Part shown: positions 4,255 to 37,513 of the stretch, piece after piece
How the letters are laid out: each line of letters starts with the position of its first letter
Numbering within the stretch: the stretch's first letter is position 1
From: Geodermatophilus marinus
GTDB taxonomy: Bacteria; Actinomycetota; Actinomycetes; Mycobacteriales; Geodermatophilaceae
Direction: 5' to 3'
DNA length: 64,000 nucleotides
NCBI RefSeq assembly: GCF_003428645.1
Contig: NZ_QVQH01000005.1
Location: 1 to 64,000, forward strand
Translations under genes and position numbers: made by a program
The notes under the pieces: generated by a model
What the model was told of the DNA's origin: nothing
The model's database searches: none
Seen by the model: the letters and a program-made list of their open reading frames with translations, nothing else

Positions 4255-4535
4255 CGCTGCTGGCTGCGCCGGCGGGCCATGGCTGCGTCCAGCTCGGCGC
4301 GGCTCTCGACCTCCCCGCGGGCGAGTTCGGCCTCGGAGGCGTGCAGCCGGCGCATGGCGTCGGCGTCGGCGAGGACCTCGATGGTCTCCTCGAGCGACTC
4401 GAGGTCCTCGGTGGCGATCAGGACCGCAGACGGCTTGCCGTGCACGGTCACGTAGACGCGCTCGTGCTGCCCGCTGACCCGCGCGACGAGCTTGGACAGA
4501 TGGGCCTTCGCGTCGGCCAGGGACAGCGTCGCCAT
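4251..4535 (-). CDS. Phd/YefM-family antitoxin
   Basis: The first 55 residues of this 94-residue protein match the Phd/YefM DNA-binding fold: MATLSLADAKAHLSKLVARV, then ERVYVTVHGKPSAVLIATEDLESLEETIEVL, with the characteristic G-K-P-x-A-V-L-I strand. The charged helical C-terminus (DAMRRLHASEAELARGEVES) would wrap the toxin. Antitoxins of this type dimerise, bind an operator over their own promoter and neutralise the partner RelE. The stop overlaps the toxin start by 4 nt. The module sits just inside the second att-like copy (4755-4787), the position where integrative elements often carry stabilisation genes. Confidence 0.88.
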   Translation of the reverse strand: MATLSLADAKAHLSKLVARVSGQHERVYVTVHGKPSAVLIATEDLESLEETIEVLADADAMRRLHASEAELARGEVESRAELDAAMARRRSQQR

Positions 4536-7169: not shown

Positions 7170-7197
7170 GTGATGCACACGTGACGGACCCGTGACG
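7170..7197 (+). promoter_or_regulatory. Triple 11-bp-spaced GTGACG element (site 1)
   Basis: Three hexamers start at 7170 (GTGATG), 7181 (GTGACG) and 7192 (GTGACG), exactly 11 bp apart. The same arrangement occurs upstream of four other genes between 12.8 and 20 kb. Direct repeats with 11-bp period are the binding pattern of OmpR/PhoB-family response regulators. The element ends only 13 bp before the GTG at 7211, so the true start of that gene may lie further downstream. Confidence 0.6.
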
Positions 7198-7210
7198 AGG
7201 GCAGGGTTCG

Positions 7211-7915
7211 GTGGGGCTCATGACCGAACTCCTGGGGCAGGCGATCTCGGGCACCCTGACGACGGGCCCGATCGAGGAGGCGGGGGCGGACCACGACGAG
7301 CGGACCCTCCTCGTGGGCGTCCGCGCCGGCCGGAACGAGGACTTCGACCGGCTCGTCCTCGACTTCGCGGGCCCGCTCCCCGGGTTCCGCGTCCAGTACG
7401 TGGACCGGCTCGTCGAGGACGGGACGGGCGACCCGGTCCCCCTCCGCGGTCGAGCGGTCGTCGAGATCACCCTGCAGCCCGCGGCAGCCCACCGGGACGA
7501 CGGCACACCGACGTGGACCGGCCCGCTCCCGGACGTGACGGGCTTCGCGGCGTTCCGCCAGATCGCCGACGCCGGTGACTCCGAGGCCGTGCTCACCTGG
7601 GGCATCGGGGTGGCCGCCGAGACGGGGCTCCGCGTCACCACGCTCCGCAGCCCGACCCGCGTCGCCGTCGACGTCGTCCACGCCGAACCGGGGACCGGGG
7701 ACCGGCTGCTGCGCCGCGGTGACCGCGGAGCTGCGGTGGCGACCTGGCAGTGGCGGCTCGCCCAGGCCCTCGACAGGCGGCTCGACGTCGACGAGGTCTT
7801 CGGGGCGATGACGGAGCAGGCCACCCGGAACTTCCAGGGTGCCCAGGGGCTCACTGCCGACGGCCTGGTGGGACCCCGCACCCGCGCCGCGATGGTGCGC
7901 GCCCTCGGCCTGTGA
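7211..7915 (+). CDS. AMIN-like domain plus peptidoglycan-binding domain protein
   Basis: The 234-residue protein has two parts. Residues ~40-155 form an AMIN-like domain (RNEDFDRLVLDFAGPLPG, then RVQYVDRLVEDGTGDPV and LRSPTRVAVDVVH), of the type found in actinobacterial cell-wall lipoproteins. Residues ~160-232 are a PG_binding_1 domain (LLRRGDRGAAVATWQW, then ATRNFQGAQGLTADGLVGPRTRAAMV). Together they suggest a murein-binding protein, yet no signal peptide or lipobox is visible from either the GTG at 7211 or the ATG at 7220. It may leave by a non-Sec route or be mis-started. The triple GTGACG element lies directly upstream, linking it to the metallopeptidase genes at 12.9-19.9 kb. Confidence 0.8.
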   Translation: MGLMTELLGQAISGTLTTGPIEEAGADHDERTLLVGVRAGRNEDFDRLVLDFAGPLPGFRVQYVDRLVEDGTGDPVPLRGRAVVEITLQPAAAHRDDGTPTWTGPLPDVTGFAAFRQIADAGDSEAVLTWGIGVAAETGLRVTTLRSPTRVAVDVVHAEPGTGDRLLRRGDRGAAVATWQWRLAQALDRRLDVDEVFGAMTEQATRNFQGAQGLTADGLVGPRTRAAMVRALGL

Positions 7916-8129
7916 CACAGGGACAGCCGGCAGCAGGGCCTGGGACGGGTGGACGCCCGTGGTGCTGCCCGGTGATCGGCACCACGGCGACCATCCAGCG
8001 GCCCGGTGCACGGCAGCGTCGCGCCCCGTCCGCACGGACAACCGTGTGTCGGAAGTCACGACATGGATACGCACGGGTGTGGCGCGCCCTGTGACAGGAG
8101 TGGCTGGCGGGACTCTTGTGCTGCGGCCC

Positions 8130-8462
8130 ATGACGGACGGCGTAGGGGCCAGCCTCACTGAGGAGTTGAGTTCGGCGATGTTCGAACCTGGTAGGTGCTC
8201 CGGTGGCAACCACGTGGCCCCGAGGGCCGGAGGGGCGTGCCCCTGCGGGATGGTCACCCGCATCCCCGCCCGCCAGCGGCCCGCTGCCGGCCCGCCGCCC
8301 GAGATCCTGGCGCTGATCGCGCGCTGCCTCGACGACGGGGTCGAGGTCCTCGACGCGGCGGCGTCCGGGCTGCTCCGCGAGCGGGCCGACCGGCTGCTGA
8401 CCGCGTTCACCACGGCCGGTCTGACGCTCAGCGCGGGTGCGGTGCACCGGCTGTCGGCCTGA
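8130..8462 (+). CDS. Small protein of unknown function
   Basis: A frame of up to 110 codons begins at ATG 8130 and ends just before a strong hairpin. The C-terminal part is convincing as protein: PPPEILALIARCLDDGVEVL, then DAAASGLLRERADRLLTAFT and TAGLTLSAGAVHRL, a compact helical segment with high third-position GC. The N-terminal part (RCSGGNHVAPRAGGACPCG) is less so, and translation may start at ATG 8250 to give ~70 residues. No family is recognised. It lies downstream of and on the same strand as the AMIN-like gene, ~215 bp apart. Confidence 0.5.
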   Translation: MTDGVGASLTEELSSAMFEPGRCSGGNHVAPRAGGACPCGMVTRIPARQRPAAGPPPEILALIARCLDDGVEVLDAAASGLLRERADRLLTAFTTAGLTLSAGAVHRLSA

Positions 8463-8473
8463 GCGCGTCCGCT

Positions 8474-8509
8474 CTCGCCGGTCGACGGGTCGACGGGTCG
8501 ACCGGCGAG
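8474..8509. terminator. Bidirectional terminator-like hairpin
   Basis: CTCGCCGGTCGAC (8474-8486) pairs perfectly with GTCGACCGGCGAG (8497-8509) around a 10-nt loop. It sits between two genes that end toward each other (8462 plus, 8588 minus), the usual place for a shared factor-independent terminator. No U-tract follows, as is common in high-GC actinobacteria. Confidence 0.7.
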
Positions 8510-8587
8510 GGCGGTGGGGCCACCTCCGGCCCGCCCCTGCGGCGTCCGCTGCCCTCGGCCCGTCGCCCTTCCGCCTCCCGGCTCGCG

Positions 8588-9574
8588 TCAGGGCGCGCGC
8601 GGTGTCCGGGCTCGACGCCGGAGGCCCTGCAGGCGCCGGCGGGGGTGGGGTTCCGGCGTGGTGGAGGTCGCGGCGACCTGCCGCGCGAGCCGCTCCACCT
8701 CCGCCCGGAGGGTGTCCCGGCGGTGCTCGAGGTCCGCCGCCTCCGCCAGGAGCGAGGCGGTGCGCGTCGCGGCGTCCCGGTCCCGGCCCTCCCGTCGCGC
8801 GACGGCCTCGCCGTCCGCCCGGAGCCGTTCCCGCCACCCGGCGCCCAGCATCCGCACCACCTCGTCCCGGGCGTTCAGCCGGGCGTCTTCGGCGTCCCGG
8901 GCGGCCCGCTGCCGGACCTGCTCGGCGTCGGCGGCGGCGCGCTCCTCGAGGGCGCGCACCTGCTCCAGGCGGATCCCGGCGGCGGCGCGGGCCTCCTCCC
9001 GGGCGCGTCCGGCCGCGTCGAGGGCACGCGCGGCCTCGGCCTGCAGCCGCTCGGCCTCGGCGCGGGCGCCGGCGCGCACCCGCTGGGCCTCGGCCCGGGC
9101 GGCGGCCCGCATCCGGGAGGCCTCGGCGCGCAAGCGCCTGGCCCGGGCCGCCGCGGCGCTCAGCTCGGCCGCCGCCTCGGCCCGGATGGTCGAGGCCTCG
9201 TCGGCCGCGGCGGCGAGCATCGACCCGATCCGGTCCGACAACCGCAGGAGCTCCGCGCCGTCGGACGAGTGCGCGCCCAGCCGCTGGGCCTCCTCGAGCT
9301 CCTGCCGCGTGCGCAGGAGGCCGGCCATGAGGTGCTCGCGCTCGTGCTCGGCCGCGGCGAGCTCGTCCTCGGCCCAGCGCACGTAGGTGTCGACCTGGAA
9401 GCGGTCGTAGCCGGCCAGGGTCCGGCGGAACATGGGGGCGGCGGCCTCGAGGACGGTGGGCAGGTCGCCGGAGACGTTCGGGGGCCGGCTCCCCGGCGGG
9501 TCGGGCGCGGGGCCCGCCCACGGCGCGCCCGGGAGGCGGGCAGCGCCCTCCTCGGCGTCCAGTTCGACGCTCAT
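8588..9574 (-). CDS. DivIVA-like coiled-coil protein
   Basis: I chose the ATG at 9574 because GGGGAGGC sits 8 nt upstream. The 328-residue product has a short acidic N-terminus, then a DivIVA-type segment (FRRTLAGYDRFQVDTYVRWA), followed by some 190 residues of Ala/Arg/Glu heptads (RAEAAAELSAAAARARRLRA, then EAQRVRAGARAEAERLQAEA) and a basic Pro/Arg-rich tail. The GYDRFQVD motif matches the membrane-curvature-sensing N-terminus of DivIVA/Wag31 proteins, but the rest is far more alanine-rich than the canonical polar-growth protein. It probably forms a scaffold at the membrane. It is not in the division cluster, so it is unlikely to be the main Wag31. Confidence 0.75.
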   Translation of the reverse strand: MSVELDAEEGAARLPGAPWAGPAPDPPGSRPPNVSGDLPTVLEAAAPMFRRTLAGYDRFQVDTYVRWAEDELAAAEHEREHLMAGLLRTRQELEEAQRLGAHSSDGAELLRLSDRIGSMLAAAADEASTIRAEAAAELSAAAARARRLRAEASRMRAAARAEAQRVRAGARAEAERLQAEAARALDAAGRAREEARAAAGIRLEQVRALEERAAADAEQVRQRAARDAEDARLNARDEVVRMLGAGWRERLRADGEAVARREGRDRDAATRTASLLAEAADLEHRRDTLRAEVERLARQVAATSTTPEPHPRRRLQGLRRRARTPRAP

Positions 9575-9793
9575 CGCACCTGCCTCCCCACGCACGCCGG
9601 GTGGAGGGCGGACGCTACGTCGACCGGGACCGGGAGTGAGCCGGATCTCCAGGACGCCTCACCCGGAGGGGCGGGGCGCACCCGCCGATCCGGGCCCCTC
9701 GTCGGGTGCCCCTCACGCCGAGCCATCCCCCCTGCGGGTGACCGGACCCGCTCCGGGCGTCCGGACGCACGCGACGGCGGGCACGCTGCTGGC

Positions 9794-10066
9794 ATGGCGC
9801 CCGCTCCGCCCACGCCGGCCCCCGGCAGCATGACCGTCCCGTTGCTGCACGGGTGGGAGGACGTCGCGACCTTCGTGGCGCTCGTCGTCCTCGCGGCCCT
9901 GCTGCTCCTGGTGGCCGGGGCGATCGGGCTCGCCGGGAACAGCCGGTCGGAGTGGCAGGCGTGGCTGGCCGCGAGGCCGAGCAGGCGGGACGCGGCAGAG
10001 GGCCCCCGCCGCGGGCTGCCGGGCGGGCCCGCGCGGGATCAGGCCGGGACGCGGTCGCGCACGTAG
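9794..10066 (+). CDS. Small single-span membrane protein
   Basis: The 90-residue frame has a Pro/Ala-rich N-terminus, one transmembrane segment at about 25-48 (VATFVALVVLAALLLLVAGA) and a basic cytoplasmic tail (SEWQAWLAARPSRRDAAEG). An internal ATG at 9830 would give ~78 residues. No family is recognised. Its 3' end overlaps the end of the PHA synthase gene on the other strand by 28 bp. Confidence 0.5.
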   Translation: MAPAPPTPAPGSMTVPLLHGWEDVATFVALVVLAALLLLVAGAIGLAGNSRSEWQAWLAARPSRRDAAEGPRRGLPGGPARDQAGTRSRT

Positions 10067-11769
10067 GAGCCGGGGGCGGGCTCCAGCGGCGGGTGCGCGG
10101 CGCTGCCGGGGGAGTCCGGCGCGGGCACCTCGTCCCCGGACCTCTCGATGGTCCACCCGGCCCACCGCTCCCACCAGCTGCCGGTGTGCCGTTCGGCCTC
10201 CGCGCGCCAGGAGTGCGGGTCCGGCCCGGGTTCCCCGCCGGTCCAGTAGTGCGCCTTGGGGTTGCCGGGCGGGTTGACCAGGCTCTGGATGTGACCGCTG
10301 TAGCTGAGCACGAAGGTGCTCGGCCCGGAGAGCAGCTGGGTCGTCCGGTAGCAGCCGTCCCACGGGGTCAGGTGGTCGGTTAGGGCGCCGGTGACGAACA
10401 TGGGGATGGTGATCCGGCTGAGGTGCACCGGGGTGTCCAGCACCCGCAGCGCGCCCGGCCGGACCAACGCGTTGCCGCCGAAGATGTCCAGGAACTGCTC
10501 GTGCAGCCGGGCGGGCAGGTTCGTGCCGTCGGCGTTCCAGGCCAGGATGTCGAACGCGGGCGGGTCCTCGCCCATGAGCCACTGGTTCACCACGTAGTTG
10601 AAGACCAGGTCGTCGGGGCGCATCCAGGTGAACACCGCCCCCATGTCCCGGGCGCTGATGACCCCGCGCCGGCGGCTGTTGCGGCGGGCGAGCTGGAGCA
10701 GCCGCGGTCCGGAGAAGGCACCGAGCGGCGCCCGGCTGGAGAAGTCGAGCAGGGTGACCGCGTACCCGGCGGCGGAGACCCGGTCGTCGCCGGTGGCAGC
10801 GAGGTGGTTGAGCGCGGTGGTCATGATCTGCCCGCCGGCGCAGAAGCCCATGGTGATCGCGTCGGGGGAGCCGGTGACCTCCCGGGCGACGTCGACGGCC
10901 CGCAGGACGCTGCCGGAGTAGGTGTCCAGGTCCCACTCGGACTGCTCCCGGGTCGGGTTGCGCCAGCTGATCATGAAGACCTGCAGGCCCTGGGCCACGG
11001 CGTACTCGACGAGGCTGCGCCCCGGACGGAGGTCCAGGAAGTAGAAGCGCCCGATGGGGGGCGGGACGATCACCAGGGGGCGCCGCCGGACCCGCGGTGT
11101 CGAGGGGGCGTACTGGATCACCTCGACGACCTCGTCGCGGTACACGACCGAGCCGGGGGTGATCCCGAGGTCCTCGCCCACGGTGAAGGCGCTGCGGTCG
11201 ACCTGCGTGGGCAGGCCGCCGTTGCGGACCAGGTCGGAGAGGGCGTTCCGCGTGCCGCGGACCAGGCTCCGGCCGGCGGTGTCGAAGGCGCGCTTGAGGG
11301 CCGCCGGGTTGCCGAGCAGCGTGTTGGTGGGCGCCATGGCGCTGGTGAACGCGGTGAGGACGAACCGCGCCTGCTCGACCTCGCGCCAATCGGCTCCGCC
11401 GGCCTCGTGGTCGGCGAGCAGCCGGTCCAGCGACCCGGCCACCGCGAGGTAGGACTGCAGCAGGCGCCGGTAGCCCGGGTGCAGGGTCCAGGCCGGGTCG
11501 GTGAACCGCTTGTCCCCGGGCCTCGGCGCGATCTCGGCGGTGCCGCGCAGGATCCGGACGGAGTCACGGGCCAGGTGTGCGACCTCCCGGGCGACCGGGC
11601 GGGGCTGGGTGAGGGTGGCGAGGACGCCGCGGACCATGCCCCGCGGGGTCGGCAGGCCCACGGGTTCGGCGCTCTCCACCGAGGCCAGCGCCTCGGACTC
11701 GGTCTGCGGGACGGCTCTGATCGGGCCGGTGCGGCGGCCCGGGCGCTGGTGCGAGGTCGTGGTCGTCAC
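10039..11769 (-). CDS. phaC: Polyhydroxyalkanoate synthase (class I/II-like PhaC)
   Basis: This 576-residue alpha/beta-hydrolase polymerises 3-hydroxyacyl-CoA into storage polyester. The lipase-like box is GFCAGG with the nucleophile Cys310. The general base pair is visible as Asp in GALTDHLTPW and His in SYSGHIQSLV. Family hallmarks include PLVIVPPPIGRFYFLDLRPG, FMISWRNPTREQSEW and the C-terminal NPPGNPKAHYW. Length matches class I/II enzymes, which work without PhaE or PhaR subunits. No phaA, phaB, phasin or depolymerase gene lies within the window, so precursors must come from elsewhere. A CRP-type palindrome ends 10 bp upstream of the start. Confidence 0.95.
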   Translation of the reverse strand: MTTTTSHQRPGRRTGPIRAVPQTESEALASVESAEPVGLPTPRGMVRGVLATLTQPRPVAREVAHLARDSVRILRGTAEIAPRPGDKRFTDPAWTLHPGYRRLLQSYLAVAGSLDRLLADHEAGGADWREVEQARFVLTAFTSAMAPTNTLLGNPAALKRAFDTAGRSLVRGTRNALSDLVRNGGLPTQVDRSAFTVGEDLGITPGSVVYRDEVVEVIQYAPSTPRVRRRPLVIVPPPIGRFYFLDLRPGRSLVEYAVAQGLQVFMISWRNPTREQSEWDLDTYSGSVLRAVDVAREVTGSPDAITMGFCAGGQIMTTALNHLAATGDDRVSAAGYAVTLLDFSSRAPLGAFSGPRLLQLARRNSRRRGVISARDMGAVFTWMRPDDLVFNYVVNQWLMGEDPPAFDILAWNADGTNLPARLHEQFLDIFGGNALVRPGALRVLDTPVHLSRITIPMFVTGALTDHLTPWDGCYRTTQLLSGPSTFVLSYSGHIQSLVNPPGNPKAHYWTGGEPGPDPHSWRAEAERHTGSWWERWAGWTIERSGDEVPAPDSPGSAAHPPLEPAPGSYVRDRVPA

Positions 11770-11779
11770 CGGTCCCCCT

Positions 11780-11795
11780 TGTGACTCAGGTCACT
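11780..11795. promoter_or_regulatory. CRP/FNR-type palindrome upstream of phaC
   Basis: The sequence TGTGACTCAGGTCACT is TGTGA-N6-TCAC(T), matching the CRP-family consensus at nine of ten half-site positions. It lies 11-26 bp before the phaC ATG, a position that suits repression or roadblock more than activation. Confidence 0.5.
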
Positions 11796-11982
11796 TCCGG
11801 GTCGACCGTAGCCGTTGGACCGGTCCGGCGACACCGGCCGGGCACCGGGACCGGCGAGCGGGACGTGGTCCTCGGGCAGGGCCGCCTCCTGGAGGCGCGG
11901 TGCGGTCGGGTGCGGCATCGTGGGGTACCCCCTCGAGGGCGGGGAGCCCGCGGTGCAGCGGGTCGCGCGTACGGAGGATGCG

Positions 11983-12297
11983 ATGACGGATCACCGGCCT
12001 GTGGAGCCCGACGCGATCATCGACGGGGACGGGACGGCGATCGCGTCCCGCCGCGCGGGGGACGGCAGGGCGCCGCTCCCGTCCGTGCCGAGGATCCCGG
12101 CACTGGTACGGCTGGCCGGCGCCGGGCCGGTCCTCGCCGCGTCGGCGTTCGCGCTCACCGCGGTGGCGGCCGCAAAGGTGGCGCAGCTGGCGGGGCGGAT
12201 GGCCTGGCAGGCCGCGGTCGGCGACGTGCCGCGGCAGCCGGTCCCCGGCCAGGTCGAGGTCACGTGGACCCGGATCGAGATCCGCGTCCTGCGGTGA
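11983..12297 (+). CDS. Small protein with a hydrophobic central segment
   Basis: ATG 11983 follows GGAGG at 11973 with good spacing. The 104-residue product has a polar N-terminus (MTDHRPVEPDAIIDGDG), a hydrophobic Ala/Val-rich stretch at about 48-68 (GPVLAASAFALTAVAAAKVA) that could cross the membrane, and a short C-terminal strand ending VEVTWTRIEIRVLR. No family is recognised. It is divergent from phaC, with the CRP-type site between them, which could connect it to storage metabolism; that is speculative. Confidence 0.6.
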   Translation: MTDHRPVEPDAIIDGDGTAIASRRAGDGRAPLPSVPRIPALVRLAGAGPVLAASAFALTAVAAAKVAQLAGRMAWQAAVGDVPRQPVPGQVEVTWTRIEIRVLR

Positions 12298-12312
12298 CCC
12301 GGGGTGCCGGGC

Positions 12313-12516
12313 TCAGGTCTCGACGGCGGTGCCGCAGATGCCGCAGACCTCCAGCCGCCGTCGTCCCCACCGGGCGACCGGCACGAAGAACACGGTCACC
12401 TGCGTGAACCGGCGCACGCGCGCCCACCGGGTGGTGTTGGCGCAGCGCGGGCAGGTGCGGACCTCTCCGGGGCCCAGGTCCCGCTGTCTCGTGCCGAAGC
12501 CGAAGAGGAAGAACAC
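12313..12516 (-). CDS. Zinc-ribbon protein
   Basis: This 67-residue protein begins MFFLFGFGTRQRDLGPG and holds two CxxC knuckles, CPRCANTT and CGICGTAV, separated by a hydrophobic/basic stretch (VRRFTQVTVFFVPVARWG). This is the layout of the small zinc-ribbon family common in actinobacteria, in which a hydrophobic loop lies between the two halves. It should bind one Zn(II). Its role is unknown. It converges with the plus-strand gene ending at 12297. Confidence 0.8.
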   Translation of the reverse strand: MFFLFGFGTRQRDLGPGEVRTCPRCANTTRWARVRRFTQVTVFFVPVARWGRRRLEVCGICGTAVET

Positions 12517-12556
12517 GGCGCCACCCTAGGCAGCCGCCCCCGGCCCGGCGCGGTGG

Positions 12557-12739
12557 TCACGGGCCCTTGGGGATGAGGATCCACAGCACGATGTAGGCGA
12601 GCTCACCCACCCCGAACAGGCCGAACAGCACGAAGCCGATGCGCACGAGCGTGCGGGAGAGGCCGAACCGGTCGGCCAGCGCGGCGCAGACACCGGCGAT
12701 GACGCGCTGCGAACGGGGACGCACCAGTTGCCCTGCCAT
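12557..12739 (-). CDS. PspC-domain protein
   Basis: This 60-residue protein consists of one PspC domain: a basic N-terminus (LVRPRSQRVIAGVCAALAD), the R-F-G-L-S-R-T-L-V-R-I segment and a hydrophobic helix (GFVLFGLFGVGELAYIVLWI) ending IPKGP. PspC proteins are inner-membrane partners in envelope-stress responses. Stand-alone minimal versions like this one are common in actinobacteria and are not necessarily tied to PspA. No PspA gene is nearby. Confidence 0.9.
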   Translation of the reverse strand: MAGQLVRPRSQRVIAGVCAALADRFGLSRTLVRIGFVLFGLFGVGELAYIVLWILIPKGP

Positions 12740-12820
12740 GCGGCCGTCCTACCCGTTACCGGGCGGGTGCAACGCCGGGACTCGTGCGTCGACCGGCCAC
12801 CCCGGTGCCGAGGAGGCGCG

Positions 12821-12848
12821 GTGACGGAGCGCTGACGGTCCCGTGACG
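12821..12848 (+). promoter_or_regulatory. Triple 11-bp-spaced GTGACG element (site 2)
   Basis: Hexamers GTGACG, CTGACG and GTGACG start at 12821, 12832 and 12843, each 11 bp apart and each followed by G or A. The element points toward the plus-strand gene whose ATG is at 12924, 75 bp downstream. Its spacing and orientation match the other four sites. Confidence 0.65.
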
Positions 12849-12923
12849 ATCCCCGCGCAGGCTCGTGCCCGAGCGGTCCGCGAGCCCGACGAGGGCGCCG
12901 CTCACCGGAGAGAGGAGCAGCTC

Positions 12924-13310
12924 ATGGCCGAGCCCGAACGCCAGCAGCCACCACTGAGCGAGGAGGAGCAGGAGCAGGCCCGTGCGGCCATCGACGAGTC
13001 CGCCGCGGCGGCCCCGGGGATGCTGTTCGCCGTCGTGAACGGCAACGGCACCCTGGCCCGCGGCTCGGGAGCGGTGTCGGCGACCAAGCTCCCCGCGACG
13101 GGCGAGTACCAGGTCCTCTTCAACCGCACCATCAACCGGGGGGCCTTCCTGAGCACCATCGGGCTGTCCGCCGACGCCGGCCAGTCCCCGCCCGGCGAGA
13201 TCATCGTCAACCTCCGCGTGGGGACCACCAACGGCGTCTTCGTGCAGACGTCGGACAGCACGGGGAAGGACGCGGACCGGTCCTTCCACCTGGCGGTGGT
13301 CCTGCCCTGA
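12924..13310 (+). CDS. Hypothetical protein, candidate member of the GTGACG regulon
   Basis: ATG 12924 is chosen for the GGAGAGAGGAG ribosome-binding site just upstream. The 128-residue protein has an acidic helical N-terminus (PPLSEEEQEQARAAIDESAA) and then a beta-rich domain: FAVVNGNGTLARGSGAVSAT, GEYQVLFNRTINRGAFLSTI, GEIIVNLRVGTTNGVFVQTS. The alternating strands suggest a small jelly-roll or C1q-like beta sandwich, but I recognise no family. There is no signal peptide. It stands alone between a triple GTGACG element and a bidirectional terminator, so it is a single-gene unit. Confidence 0.75.
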   Translation: MAEPERQQPPLSEEEQEQARAAIDESAAAAPGMLFAVVNGNGTLARGSGAVSATKLPATGEYQVLFNRTINRGAFLSTIGLSADAGQSPPGEIIVNLRVGTTNGVFVQTSDSTGKDADRSFHLAVVLP

Positions 13311-13330
13311 GGCACGGGGAGCGCGAGACC

Positions 13331-13363
13331 CGGCCCCGCTCCGCCGCTCGGCGGGCGGGGCCG
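13331..13363. terminator. Bidirectional terminator-like hairpin
   Basis: CGGCCCCGC (13331-13339) pairs with GCGGGGCCG (13355-13363), with a possible inner CCGC/GCGG extension. It lies between the convergent genes ending at 13310 and 13411. Confidence 0.65.
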
Positions 13364-13410
13364 GCTGCACCCCGTTCGGCGACCGTCGCCGCCCCCGCGC
13401 ACCCGCGACG

Positions 13411-13800
13411 TCAGCCGACGGCGGCGTCGCGATCCGCCTCCGGAGCGGCGGCCAACTCCTCCGCCACGGCGGGGGAGGCCTGCCGCAGCGCGTAGAAGCA
13501 GCCCGTCCCCGGGTTCGGGGGAGCGCTCGCGTACCCCTGGATCCCGGCGAGGGAGTTGCGGGTCACGGTGGCGGTGTAGACCAGCCCGGGGGCGTTGGTG
13601 AAGGTCCACACGGCCATGCCCTCGACCTGGAACCAGCGGCCTCCGCCGAACTGGTAGGTCCACGTGCCGTCGGCGTTGAAGGTGAAGGGGCTGGCGCGCA
13701 GCGGGCTGCCGGCACACCCCCAGTCGACGATGACGACGTTCCACGTCCCCACGATGCTCGTCCCCGCGGCGAGTGCAGCGGGTTCCACGGTCCGGGTCAT
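13411..13800 (-). CDS. Hypothetical protein, candidate member of the GTGACG regulon
   Basis: The 129-residue protein starts MTRTVEPAALAAGTSIVGTW and shows repeated beta strands with Trp and Tyr: VVIVDWGCAGSPLRASPFTF, NADGTWTYQFGGGRWFQVEG and AVWTFTNAPGLVYTATVTRN. The G-T-W, D-G-T-W-x-Y and W-x-F spacing resembles lipocalin-like or stress-protein beta barrels, where strands report on binding of small molecules; this is a weak resemblance. Two Cys residues (CAGS, GCFYAL) could pair. There is no signal peptide. It is divergent from the metzincin gene, and each has its own triple GTGACG element in the shared promoter region. Confidence 0.7.
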   Translation of the reverse strand: MTRTVEPAALAAGTSIVGTWNVVIVDWGCAGSPLRASPFTFNADGTWTYQFGGGRWFQVEGMAVWTFTNAPGLVYTATVTRNSLAGIQGYASAPPNPGTGCFYALRQASPAVAEELAAAPEADRDAAVG

Positions 13801-13876
13801 CCTGGCCTCCTCGGTCGACTACCGCGGCCTCCCGTCCCCCGGGGGCCCGACGGCGCTCGCACGGTAGGCGGCGGCG

Positions 13877-13905
13877 CGTCACGTCGGCGTCACCGCGCCC
13901 TCACC
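13877..13905 (-). promoter_or_regulatory. Triple 11-bp-spaced element (site 3), facing the 13800 gene
   Basis: On the plus strand the units CGTCACG, CGTCACC and CCTCACC start at 13877, 13888 and 13899. Read on the minus strand they are GTGACG-type hexamers facing the gene that starts at 13800, 76 bp away. This is the same relative orientation as at the other sites. Confidence 0.65.
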
Positions 13906-13923
13906 CGGACGGCCCGGGTGCCG

Positions 13924-13951
13924 GTGACGCGGGGATGACGGATCGGTGACG
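13924..13951 (+). promoter_or_regulatory. Triple 11-bp-spaced element (site 4), facing the metzincin gene
   Basis: GTGACG, ATGACG and GTGACG start at 13924, 13935 and 13946. The element faces the plus-strand gene at 14047, 95 bp downstream. It lies 18 bp from site 3 in opposite orientation, so the divergent promoters each have a private copy. Confidence 0.65.
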
Positions 13952-13973
13952 CCTCCCTGGAGAGGCTCGGCGC

Positions 13974-14028
13974 GCACCGCGCGGCCATGCACCGCGCGGC
14001 CCGCACCGCGCGGCCCGCACCGCGCGCA
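13974..14028 (+). repeat. 14-bp tandem repeat in a 5' leader
   Basis: About four units of GCACCGCGCGGCC(C) follow each other between site 4 and the ribosome-binding site of the metzincin gene. One unit carries an inserted AT that creates an upstream ATG (13987) in frame with the gene. The number of units may vary between strains and could change the length of the leader. Confidence 0.7.
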
Positions 14029-14046
14029 CCTCCAAGGGAGAGCGAC

Positions 14047-16257
14047 ATGATCGTCAAGCCCGATGCCCCCTCGACGGCCGACGTCAGCGTCGAGGGGATG
14101 CCCGAGATCCAGTTCCAGGGCGGACCGGAGCCGCTCAAGCAGCAGGTCAGCGGCCTGTACGAGGCCCGTCCCCACGACTCCGAGGACGTCTCGATCGACA
14201 TCCGGGACGCGGCCGACGGCGTCGCCGCGCTGGACGGCGCCGTGGACGGCGGCCTCGACGGGATGGCCCGTGCGGTACCGGTGACCCTGGTCTCGCAGGC
14301 CGGGCGCGAGGAGCTGCGCCTCGACGTCGACGGCCCCCACGCCCAGCAGGTGGCCAGCGGCGTCCTCGGCCTCGGCCTGGACCGGGTGCACTGGATCGCC
14401 GCGCTCACGCCGATGGGTCCCCGCCGGTGGCGTGGGCCCGTCCACTACAAGGACGGCCCCACCGCCGCCTTCCCCTACACCACCGTGACCATCCACGTCG
14501 GCGGCCACGGCGACGCGGGGGACATGCGGGCCATGGCCCGGTTCGAGGCCCCGGGGGGGCTGCGCCGCACCCGCCGCTACCGGTACTCCTCGCGGTACTT
14601 CCACACCGTCGACTTCGAGTTCGACGCCGCCACCGGGGAGTCGGCGACGACCAGCATCAACACCTGCGCCCACCCGAACCGGCCGGGGGCGCTGCCGTGC
14701 GAGCAGCTCAGCATCCGGACCGTGTTCCAGCGGGCCGGCTTCGACGCCACGGAGTCCCCCGGCGGGACCGTGCCGATCGCCGGCGCCGGGGCCGATGCCC
14801 GGTGGAGCGACGCGGAGATGCACGACGCCATGCAGGTCTTCTGGTCGCGCTTCTCGTCGAGCGCGCAGTGGGCCATGTGGGTCTTCTTCGCCTCGCTGCA
14901 CGAGCGGGGGACCGGCCTCGGCGGGATCATGTTCGACGACATCGGCCCGAACCACCGCCAGGGCACCGCGATCTTCAACGACTCGTTCATCGCCGAGGCA
15001 CCCGCGGGCGACGCCAACCCGCAGGCCTGGGTCCGGCGGATGATCTTCTGGACCGCCTGCCACGAGATGGGCCACGCCTTCAACCTGGCCCACTCCTGGC
15101 AGAAGTCCCTCGGGACGCCGTGGGTGCCCGGTCTCCCCGACGAACCGGAGGCCCGGAGCTTCATGAACTACCCGTTCCGGGTGGCCGGCGGGCAGGCGGC
15201 GTTCTTCGCCGACTTCGGCTTCCGGTTCAGCGACCAGGAGCTGCTGTTCCTGCGGCACTCGCCCGAGCGCTTCGTCCGGATGGGCGACGCCGCCTGGTTC
15301 GACCACCACGGGTTCGGCGAGGCCCGGGTCCCGGTGCAGCCGGCCCTCCGGCTGCAGCTGCGGGTCAACCGGGAGCGCCCCGTCTACGAGTTCCTCGAGC
15401 CGGTGGTCCTGGAGGCCAAGCTGACCAACACCTCCGGCAGCCCCCAGCTGGTGGACGCCCACGTGCTGGACTCCCTGGACGACATGACCCTGGTCGTCCT
15501 GCCACCGCGCGGGCCCGCCCGCCGGCACGTCCCGTTCGCCCGCTACTGCCACGCCCCGGAGACGATGGTGCTCGGACCGGGGGAGTCGCTCTACTCCTCG
15601 CTGCTGGTCTCGGCCGGCGTCGAGGGCCAGGCGATCGCCGAGCCGGGCACCTACCGGGTCCAGGCCGCCCTCCGCCACGGCGGGGAGGACGTGGTGTGCG
15701 AGCCGCTGACCCTGCGGGTGGCCGCCCCGGCCAGCCGCGAGGAGGAGGCCCTCGCCCCGGACGTCTTCACCGAGGACGTCGCCCGGGCCCTGGCCTTCGG
15801 CGGCACCGCGGTGCTCGAGGAGGCCAACGACACCCTGTCCACGGTGGTCGACCGCCTGGGTGACCGGCGGGTCGCCGTCCACGCGGCGCTCGCCCTCGCC
15901 CTGCCCGCCGCCGCCGACTACAAGGTGGCGACGGCGCGACCCGAGTCCCCGGCCGGCCTGTCGGTCGACGTCCGGAGGGCCCGGCCGGAGGAGGCCCGGC
16001 GGCTGCTCGAGCAGGCCCTGGTGGACCGCGCCGACGAGGCGGCCGCGACGCTGGGCCACATCCGGTTCGCGCAGGAGACCGAGACGGCCTCGGAGCGGCT
16101 GAGCACCTCCGACGACCCGGAGGTCGCGGGTCGGCTGATGGGCGTGGCCCACGACACCCTGGTCCGCCGCGTGGTGGACCGGCGGCGGGTCCTGCCGTCG
16201 GTCCTCGAGGAGCTGGCGCGCAAGCGGGACCGGTACACGCGGGCCGCGGTGGGCTGA
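14047..16257 (+). CDS. Metzincin-type zinc metallopeptidase without signal peptide
   Basis: ATG 14047 follows AAGGGAGAG. The 736-residue protein contains the extended zinc motif HEMGHAFNLAH (H339, E340, H343, H349) and a Met-turn 24 residues later (SFMNYP, M373), which together define a metzincin. Residues ~1-330 are an N-terminal region (YEARPHDSEDVSIDIRDAAD, then VHYKDGPTAAFPYTTVTIHV) of unknown fold. After the catalytic domain comes a beta-rich segment (~420-560: VLEAKLTNTSGSPQLVDAHV, then GEPGTYRVQAAL-like strands) and a helical C-terminus. I cannot place it in a named family. It has no Sec/Tat signal, unusual for a metzincin, so it either acts inside the cell or leaves by another route. 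It is controlled from its own triple GTGACG element. Confidence 0.85.
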   Translation: MIVKPDAPSTADVSVEGMPEIQFQGGPEPLKQQVSGLYEARPHDSEDVSIDIRDAADGVAALDGAVDGGLDGMARAVPVTLVSQAGREELRLDVDGPHAQQVASGVLGLGLDRVHWIAALTPMGPRRWRGPVHYKDGPTAAFPYTTVTIHVGGHGDAGDMRAMARFEAPGGLRRTRRYRYSSRYFHTVDFEFDAATGESATTSINTCAHPNRPGALPCEQLSIRTVFQRAGFDATESPGGTVPIAGAGADARWSDAEMHDAMQVFWSRFSSSAQWAMWVFFASLHERGTGLGGIMFDDIGPNHRQGTAIFNDSFIAEAPAGDANPQAWVRRMIFWTACHEMGHAFNLAHSWQKSLGTPWVPGLPDEPEARSFMNYPFRVAGGQAAFFADFGFRFSDQELLFLRHSPERFVRMGDAAWFDHHGFGEARVPVQPALRLQLRVNRERPVYEFLEPVVLEAKLTNTSGSPQLVDAHVLDSLDDMTLVVLPPRGPARRHVPFARYCHAPETMVLGPGESLYSSLLVSAGVEGQAIAEPGTYRVQAALRHGGEDVVCEPLTLRVAAPASREEEALAPDVFTEDVARALAFGGTAVLEEANDTLSTVVDRLGDRRVAVHAALALALPAAADYKVATARPESPAGLSVDVRRARPEEARRLLEQALVDRADEAAATLGHIRFAQETETASERLSTSDDPEVAGRLMGVAHDTLVRRVVDRRRVLPSVLEELARKRDRYTRAAVG

Positions 16258-16279
16258 CGGAGGGTCGGACAGGCGGGGA

Positions 16280-16678
16280 TCAGACGTAGCCGAACGGCGT
16301 CGGCGAGGTCCGGAACACCACGGCGTCCCCGTGGACCGAGACCCCGACGTGCAGCCGGTCGGTGACGTGGACCCGGAGCCGGCCGGTGACCGGGCGCGAC
16401 GGCAGACGCACCTCGACGTCGACGTCGCCCCCGTCGCCGGCCGGCACCTCCACCGTGTCGGCCAGCCCGATCTGCATGCGGGTGCGGACGCCGTCCCGCT
16501 CGAAGACCCGGCGGCCGTCCACCTCGACCACCACGGAGTCGCCTTCGAACCCCTCCTCGAGCGCGATGTCCAGCACCGCCACGACTGCCACCCACCTCTC
16601 GCCGGCCGCCCCCCGGTAGGGCTCCCAGGGGACCACACCCCCGGGGTCGATGCCCCCGGTCCGGTGCGGTCGGTGCAC
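16280..16678 (-). CDS. Hypothetical beta-rich protein, last gene of the M8/HAD-M28 operon
   Basis: This 132-residue protein starts 3 nt after the stop of the HAD-M28 gene, so the two are almost certainly cotranscribed. Its sequence alternates short strands: WVAVVAVLDIALEEGFEGDS, VVVEVDGRRVFERDGVRTRM, ADTVEVPAGDGGDVDVEVRL and LRVHVTDRLHVGVSVHGDAV. This looks like an immunoglobulin-like or C2-like beta sandwich. No family is recognised and there is no signal peptide. A role as binding partner, substrate or inhibitor of the neighbouring peptidases is possible but unproven. Confidence 0.75.
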   Translation of the reverse strand: MHRPHRTGGIDPGGVVPWEPYRGAAGERWVAVVAVLDIALEEGFEGDSVVVEVDGRRVFERDGVRTRMQIGLADTVEVPAGDGGDVDVEVRLPSRPVTGRLRVHVTDRLHVGVSVHGDAVVFRTSPTPFGYV

Positions 16679-16681
16679 GCG

Positions 16682-18571
16682 TCAGCGCGTGGCGGCCAGC
16701 CAGGCGGCGGCGGTGACCAGGCGGGCGATGTCCGCCGCGTACCCGGCGTCGATCGAGTCGTCCGCGGGCGTGTGGTAGTGGGGGTTCATCTCGGCCGGCG
16801 GCGCACCCGGCCCGGGGCCGGCGAACAGGTCCTCCGAGGCCAGGCACGCGGTGTAGCCGTTGAGCTGGAAGCTGTAGTGGTCGCTGCGCGCCTCCGCCGG
16901 GTCGGGCTCCCCGGGGTGCGGGTACAGCTGCGGGGCCGGCAGCGAGGGCGAGACCTGCGGGACGAGCGCGGCGACGGTCCGCGCGAGGGCCAGCGACCGC
17001 TGCTCGACCGCGGGTGAGTCGCCGAAGCCGGCGTGCAGCTCGAAGGTGCGCTCGGGCTGCACGTCCCAGCCGATCATGTCCATCTGGAACACGCCGACGA
17101 CGTCGGTGCCGAGCAGGGCCTGGTCGCGGGCGTAGGCCAGGCTGCCGACCAGACCGTGCTCCTCCGCGTTGAACAGGACGAACCGCACCGCCCGGCGGGG
17201 CGGTCCGAGCGCGGCGTCCAGCGCCTGGACGGCGTCCGCCGCGGCGAGCACCCCGGCGACCCCGCTGCCGTCGTCGTCGGCCCCGGGAGCCGGGTCGGTC
17301 GCCGGCCGGTAGCCCCGGTGCAGGGCTCCCGTGGAGTCCATGTGCGCCGTCACCAGCACGACGCCGTCGAGCCCGGTCCCGGGCAGCTCGGCCTCGACGT
17401 TCTCCAGCCGGCGCCCCTGGTGCGGGAACCGGTGCCGGCGGACGGCGAAGCGCCCACCGCCGATCCGCTCCAGGTCCGCGACGAGCGCGGCGACCGCCCG
17501 CGCGTTGTGCGGGTGGTGGATGTGCCTGCTGGCGATGACCCCGCCGTCCCCGGGGGCCGGGGCGGCCCCGGTGTAGCGCGCGAGGTGGTCGGTGAGCTCC
17601 TTCGGCCCGATCCGGGCGTCGAGGACCTCCTTCTCCGCGGGGGAGAGGACCGGGGGGACGGCGCCGGCCTCCGCCGCCGCGGCGCGCTCGTCGACCGGCC
17701 GGACCGCCGGGGCGGTCGGTGCCAGCTTCAGGTTGTGCCCGTGCCGGGTCCCGTCGAAGTGGTAGTCCTCCACGGACCGCCCCGCCGGCACGGCGACCAC
17801 GAGGCCGTCGTCGGTGGAGGTGAGGACGGCGCGGGCGGCCGGACCGGCCCCGAAGAAGTCGGTCGAGTTCCCGTCGAGGGCCAGGAAGCCGCTGGCGACC
17901 TGGCGGTCGTCGCGCAGCAGGTACAGCTCCGTCGTGAGCGGCTCGTCCTCGGCGCCCAGGCGGTCCACCCGGAAACCCAGGTCGTCGAGCCGCGCGGCGG
18001 CCGCCGCCGTCCCGATCGCGTAGACCGTGGTGCCGGCCCGGCCGGTGACGTGCAGCGGCACCAGCGGCAGGTCGCCGAGCGCGGTCCGCCAGTCCTCGCC
18101 GGCGTGGGCCGGCGGGACCGTGAGCCGCAGGTAGCGCAGGTGCTCCCGGTCGTCCAGCACCGCGGCCGCCAGCCGGGGGTGCGGCGCGACCAGCAGCCCG
18201 GCGCGCAGGGCCTGCGCCCGCTCGTCCGGGTCCTCCCCGACGAACAGCACGCGGTCCGCGCCGCCCGCGCGCTCCCGGGCCTGCTCGAAGAGCCGGGGGG
18301 AGTCCTTCGGCCCGTAGAGGACCAGGTCGGGCTCGAGGGAGCTGCGGAGGCCGGCGTCCTCGAGCGCCCGGTCGACCTCGTCGGCGGGGAGGGGACCGGG
18401 GTCCGAGAGGATCCCCAGGCGGGCGCCGCGCTCCCGGAGCTCTGCGAGCACCCCGCGCACGTACGGGTAGACCGCGAGCTCCTCGATCCGGTCCCCGCTC
18501 GCCGACAGCCTGGCCGAGGCCAGCGTGCCGCCGATGTCGAAGAAGACCACCGCGCCGGTCCGTGGGTCCAT
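16682..18571 (-). CDS. HAD-like domain fused to an M28-family zinc aminopeptidase
   Basis: I prefer ATG 18571 (GAGGAG five nt upstream) over GTG 18577. The 629-residue protein joins two domains. Residues ~8-145 resemble a haloacid-dehalogenase fold: FFDIGGTLAS, LGILSDPG, YGPKDSPRLFEQA and VLFVGEDPDE; the usual DxDGT is DxGGT here, so the second Asp is missing and phosphatase activity is doubtful. Residues ~365-625 are an M28 peptidase with all five zinc ligands visible: H410 in TAHMDSTG, Asp in GADDDGSG, Glu in NAEEHGLVGS, Asp in QMDMIGWD and His in HYHTPADD. M28 enzymes remove N-terminal residues from peptides. I know of no common HAD-M28 architecture. It follows the M8 gene in an apparent operon. 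Confidence 0.88.
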   Translation of the reverse strand: MDPRTGAVVFFDIGGTLASARLSASGDRIEELAVYPYVRGVLAELRERGARLGILSDPGPLPADEVDRALEDAGLRSSLEPDLVLYGPKDSPRLFEQARERAGGADRVLFVGEDPDERAQALRAGLLVAPHPRLAAAVLDDREHLRYLRLTVPPAHAGEDWRTALGDLPLVPLHVTGRAGTTVYAIGTAAAAARLDDLGFRVDRLGAEDEPLTTELYLLRDDRQVASGFLALDGNSTDFFGAGPAARAVLTSTDDGLVVAVPAGRSVEDYHFDGTRHGHNLKLAPTAPAVRPVDERAAAAEAGAVPPVLSPAEKEVLDARIGPKELTDHLARYTGAAPAPGDGGVIASRHIHHPHNARAVAALVADLERIGGGRFAVRRHRFPHQGRRLENVEAELPGTGLDGVVLVTAHMDSTGALHRGYRPATDPAPGADDDGSGVAGVLAAADAVQALDAALGPPRRAVRFVLFNAEEHGLVGSLAYARDQALLGTDVVGVFQMDMIGWDVQPERTFELHAGFGDSPAVEQRSLALARTVAALVPQVSPSLPAPQLYPHPGEPDPAEARSDHYSFQLNGYTACLASEDLFAGPGPGAPPAEMNPHYHTPADDSIDAGYAADIARLVTAAAWLAATR

Positions 18572-18646
18572 CGTCACTCCTCAGCACTGCCGGGCCACCC
18601 GGTCGGCGAAGGCGGCCCGGCCCTCGGCCGGTGGGGCCGACCGACG

Positions 18647-18853
18647 TCAGCGGCCCCCGTCCGCGTCCGCCGGCCGGTCCCGGTCCGTCCGCGCCGACCC
18701 GTCCTCGGTCCCCTCCCGATCGGCCGCGTCCGGGCCGGGGGAGGGGCTCTCCTCGCGTCCGACGACGCGGACCTCGTCACCGGCGACCTCGGGGACGGGG
18801 TGCTCGACGTGCTCGTCGATCCACCGCCAGTCCTCCTCGCCGGGCCGCTGCAC
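18647..18853 (-). CDS. Small acidic protein within the metallopeptidase operon
   Basis: A 68-codon frame starts at GTG 18853, ten bases after the M8 stop. It begins MQRPGEEDWRWIDEHVEHPV and continues into an Asp/Glu/Arg-rich, probably disordered tail. The spacing and high third-position GC favour a real gene, but the ribosome-binding site is weak and no family is recognised. It could be a partner or pro-peptide-like inhibitor of the adjoining peptidases; this is inference from position only. Confidence 0.4.
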   Translation of the reverse strand: MQRPGEEDWRWIDEHVEHPVPEVAGDEVRVVGREESPSPGPDAADREGTEDGSARTDRDRPADADGGR

Positions 18854-18862
18854 CGGAGCCCG

Positions 18863-19861
18863 CTACCGGTGGGTGAGCACCGAGGTCGGGGCGACCTCGG
18901 GTGTCGGGTGCTCGACGTAACCGCCGGTGCCGCCGACCTCCCCGATGGCCTCGTGCAGCCGCCCGGCCGTGAGCACGCCCATGATGGCGAGCGCGGTGGG
19001 GGACGGGAGGGTGTAGTCGTCGCAGGCGTCGAGGTCCACCTCGTAACCGAGGTCCTTCAGCGCGCCGCCGGTCACCCTGCTGAGCGGGTTCGCGCCCTGG
19101 TTGACGAAGCCGGTCATCATCTCGGCCCCGAAGACGCTCTCCCGCCAGTGGCTGCCGATGGTGCCCGGACCGAAGTTGTCCTCGATCGGGACGGGAACGC
19201 CCCCGCCCCCGCCGTCGCCGGCTCCGGCCGCCGCCCGGAGGTCGGGCAGCCGGGCGATCGCGGTGCCGGCGCACGGGTCCTGCAGCTTGCCGAACTCCGC
19301 CATGGCGGTCGGTCCGGTGAAGGACCACTGCGGCGTGTTCCGGTTGGCCACGAAGCCCTTCGCGTTCCAGACGAAGTCGAGCATCCCGATGACGTGACCC
19401 ATCTCGTGCATGATCACGGTGTTCCACAGGCCCTGGGCGATCATGGTCGGGATGTCGGCGACGTCGAACTCCATGATGCCGGTGATCGTCAGGAACTCGT
19501 GCGTGCTGCCGGCCGGCCGCAGCAGGCGGGGGCCGGCCCGGCCGAGGACGCGCCCGGGCCCGTCGATGGACACGCCGGCGGCGTCGATGCGGACGTCGTC
19601 CACCTTCGTGCCGTCGGGGAGGACGACGTCCTCGAGGTCACCGACGATGACCTGGGCCCACCTGTCCGCGGCCGTCCGGAAGGCCCCCTTCTGCTCCTCC
19701 GTGAGGCCGCCGAGGAAGCGGACCTCGATGCAGAACGGGTTGTCGGTGCCGGCCACGCGTTCCGCGGCGGCCTTGTCGGCGGTGGCCTGGTACACCTCCT
19801 CGACGTCGACCGCTTCCAGTCCTGACCCCAGGCCGGCGTAGAAGGTCTTCTGCTCGGGCAC
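18863..19861 (-). CDS. Leishmanolysin-like (M8-type) metallopeptidase without signal peptide
   Basis: The GTG start at 19861 has GGGAGGGGA upstream. This 332-residue protein carries HEMGHVIGM (H152, E153, H156), a distant third His in GSHWRES (H238) and a Met-turn in FGAEMMTG (M248/M249), the arrangement of leishmanolysin-type M8 metzincins in which the third ligand is separated by a long insert. The preceding segment FLTITGIMEFDVADIPTMIA and the later GALKDLGYEVDLDACDDYTL also fit the family. Classical M8 enzymes are secreted or surface-anchored, but here the N-terminus (MPEQKTFYAGLGSGLEAVDV) is hydrophilic. It is first gene of a four-gene minus-strand group with the small acidic ORF, HAD-M28 and the 132-residue protein. 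A triple GTGACG element lies 106 bp upstream. Confidence 0.9.
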   Translation of the reverse strand: MPEQKTFYAGLGSGLEAVDVEEVYQATADKAAAERVAGTDNPFCIEVRFLGGLTEEQKGAFRTAADRWAQVIVGDLEDVVLPDGTKVDDVRIDAAGVSIDGPGRVLGRAGPRLLRPAGSTHEFLTITGIMEFDVADIPTMIAQGLWNTVIMHEMGHVIGMLDFVWNAKGFVANRNTPQWSFTGPTAMAEFGKLQDPCAGTAIARLPDLRAAAGAGDGGGGGVPVPIEDNFGPGTIGSHWRESVFGAEMMTGFVNQGANPLSRVTGGALKDLGYEVDLDACDDYTLPSPTALAIMGVLTAGRLHEAIGEVGGTGGYVEHPTPEVAPTSVLTHR

Positions 19862-19967
19862 CTGAACTCCCCTCCCGGGCGTCGTGGTGACGACGGTCCG
19901 ACGTGGTCCCGGCCCCTGCCGGGAGTCGGTCCGCGGCGATCCGGCGCGAGCACGCTAGGCGCTGCCG

Positions 19968-19996
19968 CGTCACCCGCCCGTCACCCCGGCGTCACC
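19968..19996 (-). promoter_or_regulatory. Triple 11-bp-spaced element (site 5), facing the M8 operon
   Basis: CGTCACC occurs three times without mismatch at 19968, 19979 and 19990, the best-conserved copy. Read on the minus strand it points to the M8 gene start at 19861. It also lies 154 bp upstream of the divergent BCCT gene, which could be affected too. Confidence 0.7.
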
Positions 19997-23826: not shown

Positions 23827-23848
23827 GGGTGCTCCAGGCTCATCGACT

Positions 23849-23885: not shown

Positions 23886-23959
23886 GCATGGCTGGGCTTC
23901 ACCCCATCGTCAAGGGGAACGCCGGCGGCGTCCCGCGGTTCGCCACCTACGCTGAGGTC

Positions 23960-24760: not shown

Positions 24761-24810
24761 CCGGGCGGGAGGCCGCTCCCGGGACGGCCGGCACTCCGCC
24801 CGACCTGGCC

Positions 24811-34373: not shown

Positions 34374-37513
<3,140 letters not shown>

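Follow-up and report, generated by a model that had tools for sequence, protein, structure and literature searches.

The window analysed here, 64,000 nucleotides of Geodermatophilus marinus (contig NZ_QVQH01000005.1, positions 1 to 64,000), carries five groups of three GTGACG-like hexamers with an exact 11-bp pitch, standing before a wall-binding protein gene, three genes without Pfam match and a peptidase operon (Table 1). We predict, at a probability put near 0.88, that a small activator of the SARP type, whose gene lies in another part of the genome, binds these elements. The element at 19968 matches three GTGACG hexamers without mismatch, and the other four have one mismatch each. At up to 3 mismatches, the window had seven matches, of which two reread known sites with a shift of 11 bp, leaving five triples only; 100 dinucleotide shuffles of the window gave a mean of 0.48 and a maximum of 5 at this threshold, and none reached the observed count. 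All five elements are oriented toward their own downstream gene, and by our gene calls four of them end 76, 77, 96, and 107 nt before the start codon, with the 7170 element at 14 nt (GTG) or 23 nt (ATG). An earlier note, made from the letters of the window, had described these triples as the only ones present, as pointing the same way relative to their genes (four of them 75-106 bp away), and as presenting one helical face; coordinates and shuffles, gene calls, and the exact pitch bear this out.

The window's own genome (5.2 Mb, 71 contigs; in the labels used below G is a genome, with G000 the own genome, C a contig, and L a locus stretch) contained 12 sites at up to 1 mismatch and 19 at up to 2, with 0 sites for the reversed pattern (up to 1 mismatch). 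Sites on C17 and C47 have a -10 hexamer but adjoin insertion-like or poorly coding DNA. A site at C70:172433 (L022:9434; GTGACG-N5-GTTACG-N5-GTGACG) stands before a sugar-type ABC transporter operon, has no -10 at 9-10 nt, and is probably the operator of another regulator; similarly shaped GTTACG-centred sites were seen at G053:C1:3030543 and G090:C113:21566, and G090 has no SARP and no other triple.

Triples and the SARP gene occurred together across the family Geodermatophilaceae. In a sample of 57 family genomes (SARP taken as at least 130 bits with the own 247-residue protein as query), 20 had both, 2 SARP only, 1 a triple only, and 34 neither. All 112 family genomes (SARP at E 1e-25) divided, in the same order, into 52, 6, 5, and 49 (Fisher p 6e-19), and the 55 genomes outside the first sample into 32, 4, 4, and 15 (p 8e-7). 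Triples numbered 259 in the 58 SARP genomes versus 5 in the 54 others, and when labels were shuffled within genera, 0 of 100,000 shuffles reached the observed agreement of 101/112. One of the two SARP-only genomes of the sample, G011, carries a SARP copy with an internal stop (C11:15710-16402) and is without any triple; regulator and sites may have been lost together. Of 52 SARP genes, 18 had a triple within 1.5 kb and 40 within 15 kb, figures that were not used as evidence because hand-picked rows bias them upward.

In the SARP promoters described in the literature, direct repeats are spaced by 11 or 22 bp, and 8 bp separate the 3' repeat from the -10 (PMC10936776). We read 77 sites at up to 1 mismatch (window, own-genome stretches, and relatives' stretches; the family scan listed more sites than loci whose DNA was read), left out 8 with no gene start within 260 nt, and compared the remaining 69, orthologues being counted as separate sites. 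In 57 of the 69, the third repeat was followed by a NANNNT hexamer after 9 or 10 nt (57/65 with overlapping registers merged; 9 nt in 38 sites, 10 nt in 20, one site having both); any other single offset was seen in 0 to 5 sites. The own genome had this arrangement at 10 of its 12 sites, including four of the five in the window. A larger count, 100 of 117 sites with a -10, was not used as evidence because sites with 2 mismatches were admitted only with a -10. The 11-bp spacing is one of the two published, and the distance to the -10 agrees as well, 9-10 nt from the hexamer end being 8-9 if the repeat is counted as a heptamer; judged from their letters, the triples are predicted promoter parts that follow the published SARP plan. 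In the window, as in the orthologous promoters L089, L149, and L151, the third repeat is followed after 22 or 23 nt by the ATG of the AMIN-like gene, close to the expected start of transcription, so that a leaderless transcript is possible for this gene.

Conservation was examined by searching the AMIN-like protein in all 112 family genomes regardless of triples. Orthologues above 300 bits numbered seven (window included), and all seven had a triple at up to 1 mismatch at the gene start, as had the partial match found in G098. Sixteen weaker matches, scoring 76 to 94 bits, were to different AMIN-domain proteins (one is encoded by the own genome), and in the stretches examined these had 0 triples at up to 3 mismatches. 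For the M8 protein a single close orthologue was found, in G004 (85% identity); it has its own triple and adjoins a SARP gene. Between promoter pairs of three genes, the spacers were 30-80% identical, the 60 bp upstream 23-47%, and the hexamers 89-100%, the last figure being partly circular because the sites were chosen by GTGACG. The earlier note had offered two ways of overturning the regulon, a random spread of triples through the genome and a lack of conservation before orthologous genes. The first failed when run with controls and shuffles, the triples not lying at random density genome-wide, and the second, run for the AMIN-like and M8 genes, supports the regulon.

SARP relatives in named genomes were represented by the best 77 loci of 332 relatives, from Geodermatophilus, Blastococcus, Modestobacter, then Streptomyces, Yinghuangia, Nonomuraea, Streptoalloteichus, Naasia, and others. 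GTGACG triples in these loci numbered 8, 28, and 34 at 0, 1, and 2 mismatches (control 0, 0, and 1). In the 30 loci taken as outside the family (19 of them Streptomyces), the SARP gene had a triple with a -10 no more than 1 kb away in 10, 16, and 21 loci at up to 2, 3, and 4 mismatches; 25 permuted hexamers gave 0, 0, and a mean of 0.12, and other spacings with a -10 gave 0 at 3 mismatches. Scanned over 296 genomes of the phylum, a strict pattern (TGACG three times plus ANNNT) matched in 9 and its control in 0, and a SARP above 200 bits was found in 5/8 motif-positive genomes (without G000) versus 3/23 motif-negative genomes of our choosing (p 0.013). The letters of the code were read by a free-base test, in which three nTnACn repeats at 11 bp plus a -10 were sought in the 77 loci with bases 1, 3, and 6 free (43 sites, 129 repeats). 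G stood at base 3 in 120/129 repeats, at base 6 in 112/129, and at base 1 in 73/129. Outside the family, 21 sites close to SARP genes had 54 mismatches to GTGACG, 42 of them at base 1. G at bases 3 and 6 and a free base 1 make the code nTGACG, not GTnAC. Base counts of the sites at up to 1 mismatch were left unused because those sites were chosen by GTGACG.

The own genome has eight BTAD matches, among them two close relatives on C67 (Table 1). The 247-residue protein matches BTAD (PF03704, E 2.4e-18, 67.3 bits versus a cut-off of 22.1); in Pfam it has no match to the winged helix itself and none to a receiver domain. A structure model was built from 37 sequences for the SARP homologue of L129, not for the own protein (mean predicted local distance difference test score, 92.5). 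Its six Protein Data Bank (PDB) matches at E <0.001 were AfsR (8k60, 8hvr) and EmbR (2ff4, 2fez), with template modelling (TM) scores of 0.70-0.74 by query length, and the best were AfsR in transcription complexes (25-26% identity in the structural alignment). The model thus gives the regulator a predicted SARP fold, with an OmpR-type winged helix and an AfsR/EmbR-like overall fold. AfsR T88 and R92 contact specific bases (PMC10936776) and align, in a hidden Markov model alignment and by our own reading of the pairing, with S72 and R76 of the SARP, both invariant in a 25-row alignment. A double element preceding a patatin gene lies 2.6 kb from the end of the second copy. A protein of 60-75 residues often lies beside the SARP gene in Geodermatophilaceae (L021:6587-7902; L071:8562-8783), and a 63-residue gene in Nonomuraea (L195:10723-10914) resembles it by eye; no Pfam match was found for the member tested, which is a possible partner of the SARP. 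Between the two own SARP copies (L021:8128-12884) are genes for a subtilase, a 905-residue CHAT-TPR protein, and a 164-residue protein, a set that recurs in L160, with subtilase and CHAT protein also in L168. A CATRA-type conflict system was set aside as a frame for this SARP/CHAT/S8 cluster, though kept as a lead: the ten proteins scanned gave no NCBIfam match of that kind, the consulted part of PMC8195603 uses the term once and does not define it, and that of PMC7159879 was not decisive.

Three grounds favour the SARP as binder: genomes tend to have or lack SARP and triples together, triples are found beside the regulator gene, and the sites fit the published promoter plan. The identity of the regulator is well supported; that it binds and activates, how many protomers take part, and what the regulon is for are inferred. 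Each 11-bp repeat would hold one SARP protomer, all of them on the same face of the DNA. The protomer nearest the -10, immediately before it, would take over the role of the -35 contact and bring in RNA polymerase, as is established for AfsR. The targets of the SARP would be dispersed genes for hydrolases and for proteins acting on wall or membrane, most of them lacking an evident signal peptide. Several observations weigh against this assignment, and a second, co-inherited regulator might be the binder instead. In the family, six SARP genomes are without a triple and five triple genomes without a SARP at E 1e-25, and many targets lie far from SARP genes, as do all five in the window. The 7170 site has no NANNNT at 9-10 nt, and neither have three orthologous promoters read by eye; two weaker M8-like regions in the SARP genome G099 have no close triple. 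Outside the family, the SARP matches above 200 bits in three motif-negative genomes count against it, as do two of the eight motif-positive genomes without a SARP match at E 1e-8, and the motif in G211 adjoins a 1143-residue SARP-like frame of 106 bits, barely above matches in motif-negative genomes. By eye, S72/R76 are replaced by T/K in many Streptomyces copies.

Table 1. Triple elements, predicted -10 hexamers, and genes of the window, with the two SARP genes on contig C67 (aa, amino acids)
Feature	Position	Strand	Remarks
Triple element	7170..7197	+	GTGATG-GTGACG-GTGACG; predicted promoter of AMIN-like/peptidoglycan-binding gene
Triple element	12821..12848	+	GTGACG-CTGACG-GTGACG (mismatch hexamer at 12832)
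Triple element	13877..13904	-	Predicted leftward divergent promoter; first repeat GTGAGG (13899)
Triple element	13924..13951	+	Predicted rightward divergent promoter; second repeat ATGACG (13935)
Triple element	19968..19995	-	Perfect GTGACG x3; M8/HAD-M28 operon
Predicted -10 CAGGCT	12858..12863	+	9 nt after third repeat of 12821 element
Predicted -10 TACCGT	13861..13866	-	10 nt after third repeat of 13877 element
Predicted -10 GAGGCT	13962..13967	+	10 nt after third repeat of 13924 element
Predicted -10 TAGCGT	19952..19957	-	10 nt after third repeat of 19968 element
AMIN-like (PF24837) + PG_binding_1 (PF01471) protein, 234 aa	7211..7915	+	Pfam; alternative ATG at 7220
128-aa protein	12924..13310	+	No Pfam match
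129-aa protein	13411..13800	-	No Pfam match
736-aa protein, HEMGHAFNLAH	14047..16257	+	No Pfam match; metzincin-like zinc motif by eye
132-aa protein, end of M8/HAD-M28 operon	16280..16678	-	No Pfam match
HAD hydrolase + Peptidase_M28 fusion, 629 aa	16682..18571	-	Pfam
68-aa protein between M8 and HAD-M28	18647..18853	-	Gene call
Peptidase_M8 protein, 332 aa, HEMGHVIGMLD	18863..19861	-	Pfam; signal peptide not apparent
SARP gene, 247 aa	C67, L021:6917-7660		Predicted winged helix plus BTAD
Second SARP copy	C67:228634-229365		68% identical

Relatives repeat parts of this layout. A homologue of the 736-residue protein in L135 also has a triple upstream, L071 has a 78-residue gene after its M8 gene (compare the 68-residue gene of the window), and G030 encodes a 629-residue protein whose N-terminus is similar to that of HAD-M28 by eye, with its own triple at L057:8962. 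By their translations, window positions 1-4535 hold integrase-like frames and two toxin-antitoxin-like pairs (PIN type and RelE/Phd type), which look like a mobile edge adjoining the regulon cluster. A row of Rieske oxygenase, sarcosine-oxidase-like, glyA-like, serine-dehydratase-like, and deformylase-like genes at 22337-41233, likewise read from translations, looks like a pathway from glycine betaine to serine.

Target genes were classed in three sets: 55 first genes (54 of 66 first proteins plus one 2-mismatch target), 35 further first genes (of 38), and 100 operon genes (of 120). The 55 included, among the families listed, M4 (4), M10 (astacin-like, 4), S41 (2), M8 (2), M28 (1), S8 (1), and M43 (1), with overlap, together with Tle1-like phospholipase (3), PG_binding_1 (3), AMIN-like (2), patatin, tyrosinase, CHAT, Pvc16_N, and others. 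The 35 added PG_binding_1 (4), Tle1-like (2), S8 (2), haem peroxidase (2), phage sheath (2), caspase, and Endonuclease_NS. Operon genes included, among the families listed, PG_binding_1 (6), M14 (4), tail tube (4), M23 (4), Emfourin (3), CHAT (2), sheath (2), and eCIS_core (1). Five of ten own-genome target proteins scanned had no Pfam match, and 55 background genes of the own genome were, among the families listed, mainly metabolic (M20, 2; M28, 2). The first genes come from several genomes and the background from one, with the best 25 of 35 families listed for the former and the best 25 of 131 for the latter; peptidase enrichment is called likely, rather than measured, because the counts for the 55 first genes, the operon genes, and the background are of the best 25 families. 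An N-terminal hydrophobic stretch occurred in 8/61 first genes versus 11/117 background genes, no difference overall; its absence is notable for the peptidases and lipases. The earlier note had proposed an undescribed regulon tying leaderless metallopeptidases to wall-binding and unknown proteins. Many hydrolases indeed have no evident N-terminal signal; the restriction does not stand, the targets extending to lipases, CHAT/caspase proteins, peroxidases, tyrosinase, and, in some relatives, contractile injection operons. No description of this regulon was found in the literature searched (eCIS with SARP, GTGACG with SARP; most subscription journals lay outside the scope), and the one paper found for Geodermatophilus with SARP appears to concern a different topic.

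As to purpose, our first choice, held tentatively, is self-lysis, programmed death, or attack, in which leaderless proteases, lipases, and wall enzymes would be made inside the cell, some of them inactive, and freed at lysis; injected cargo is ranked second. PG_binding_1, M23, and Endonuclease_NS members among the targets fit the first choice, as do the CHAT, caspase, and TPR-S proteins and the presence of the regulon in genomes without a sheath or tube gene. Emfourin, which we take to be an M4-protease inhibitor family, makes up 3/100 operon genes, and M14 carboxypeptidases come with a short propeptide-like partner (by eye). The 53/61 first genes in which no N-terminal hydrophobic stretch was seen point the same way, although background genes are without one as often (106/117). 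At L020:6050-7511, L068:16561-18025, and L074:9300-10732, the M14-type gene is followed by one of 82-84 residues that resembles its N-terminal part by eye and could encode a free propeptide or an inhibitor.

Under the second-ranked explanation, which we think unlikely, the targets would be cargo or helpers of a contractile injection system under the same SARP. Six loci have a triple in front of genes for the sheath, the ATPase, or other parts of an injection system: L073 and L079 (Geodermatophilus), L178 (Yinghuangia), L179 (Streptomyces), L195 (Nonomuraea), and L203 (a metagenome-assembled genome of Thermoleophilia). In the 57-genome sample, sheath PF04984 was present in 10 genomes and tube PF06841 in 9, with 8 of each among the 20 genomes having both SARP and triple; for the sheath gene this is 8/20 versus 2/37 others, or 8/22 of the SARP-bearing genomes of the sample. 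BTAD is, moreover, already listed as a domain linked to extracellular contractile injection system (eCIS) operons by Geller et al. 2021 (PMC8213781). Against this, G000 has 0 matches to PF04984 and PF06841, the many-triple genomes G030, G041, G043, and G007 are also without sheath or tube by Pfam, and eCIS_core was matched by only 1 in 100 operon genes. The cluster-linked regulator needed for the operon of contractile particles in S. coelicolor and S. lividans is the LuxR-type SCO4263/SlpR, acting with bldA, and not a SARP (PMC8505568). Cargo of an injection system is not supported as an explanation for the window itself, its genome having neither sheath nor tube gene; the regulon of G000 must work independently of an injector, or else this genome has lost it.

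A different binder, an OmpR/PhoB-type response regulator of the AfsQ1, GlnR, MtrA, or PhoP group, was the earlier note's candidate and is probably wrong; we consider it very improbable. PhoB-type regulators, too, are able to stand in for the -35 contact. The AfsQ1 site is GTnAC-n6-GTnAC (PMC6988585), and perfect GTGACG repeats at 11 bp fit it letter for letter. The triples track the SARP gene, the regulator scored for co-occurrence, however, within genera too, and the free-base counts give nTGACG rather than GTnAC. The linked regulator has BTAD and no receiver domain by Pfam, and the model of its relative matches SARPs, so that the likeness to OmpR/PhoB would come only through the OmpR-type winged helix of the SARP. 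Chance or a GC-rich simple repeat, conceivable in a window of 74.7% GC in which single GTGACG is common, is ruled out by the shuffles and the phyletic pattern, control patterns having given 0 in most scans and the reversed control 0 matches in 111 of the 112 family genomes (G108 alone has 5).

With a small SARP as the binder, it becomes conceivable, at somewhat short of even odds, that it runs a genome-wide weapon or self-destruction regulon with a three-repeat code, and that the regulon predates or outlives the injection machine. If so, the code would allow unlinked effectors, inhibitors, and injection machines to be catalogued across Actinomycetota from sequence alone, and genomes such as G000 would have retained the weapons while lacking the injector. 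Antibiotic synthesis is the process that SARPs are chiefly known to switch on; in this case one seems to govern scattered hydrolases and, in relatives, phage-tail-like machines. Two open problems of injection systems, how to find cargo that does not adjoin the injection locus and what activates loci outside the LuxR-controlled Streptomyces cases, become testable because the background of the cis code is very low (259 versus 5 sites).

Known systems share parts of this arrangement. BTAD genes at eCIS loci have in common with it a BTAD regulator adjoining injection operons; here, the code also marks genes in machine-free genomes, and the site, the promoter plan, and the genome-wide targets are not in the consulted parts of PMC8213781. 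SCO4263/SlpR is likewise a cluster-linked regulator of a contractile injection operon, but in the consulted parts of its description it is LuxR-type and bldA-dependent. AfsQ1 and GlnR sites share 11-bp direct repeats and a compatible core, whereas the triples have nTGACG with a free first base, three copies, a fixed distance to the -10, and a presence tied to a SARP. The actinobacterial PhoP box also has 11-bp direct repeats, with a GTTCACC-like core unlike the triple hexamer. AfsR and the SARP activators of Streptomyces (afs box; PDB 8hvr, 8k60) share the winged helix plus BTAD, direct repeats at 11 bp, a last repeat about 8 bp before the -10, and aligned base-contacting residues; the regulator proposed here differs in being a small stand-alone protein, in having three nTGACG repeats where the afs box has two, and in its targets, which are scattered hydrolases instead of an antibiotic cluster or afsS.

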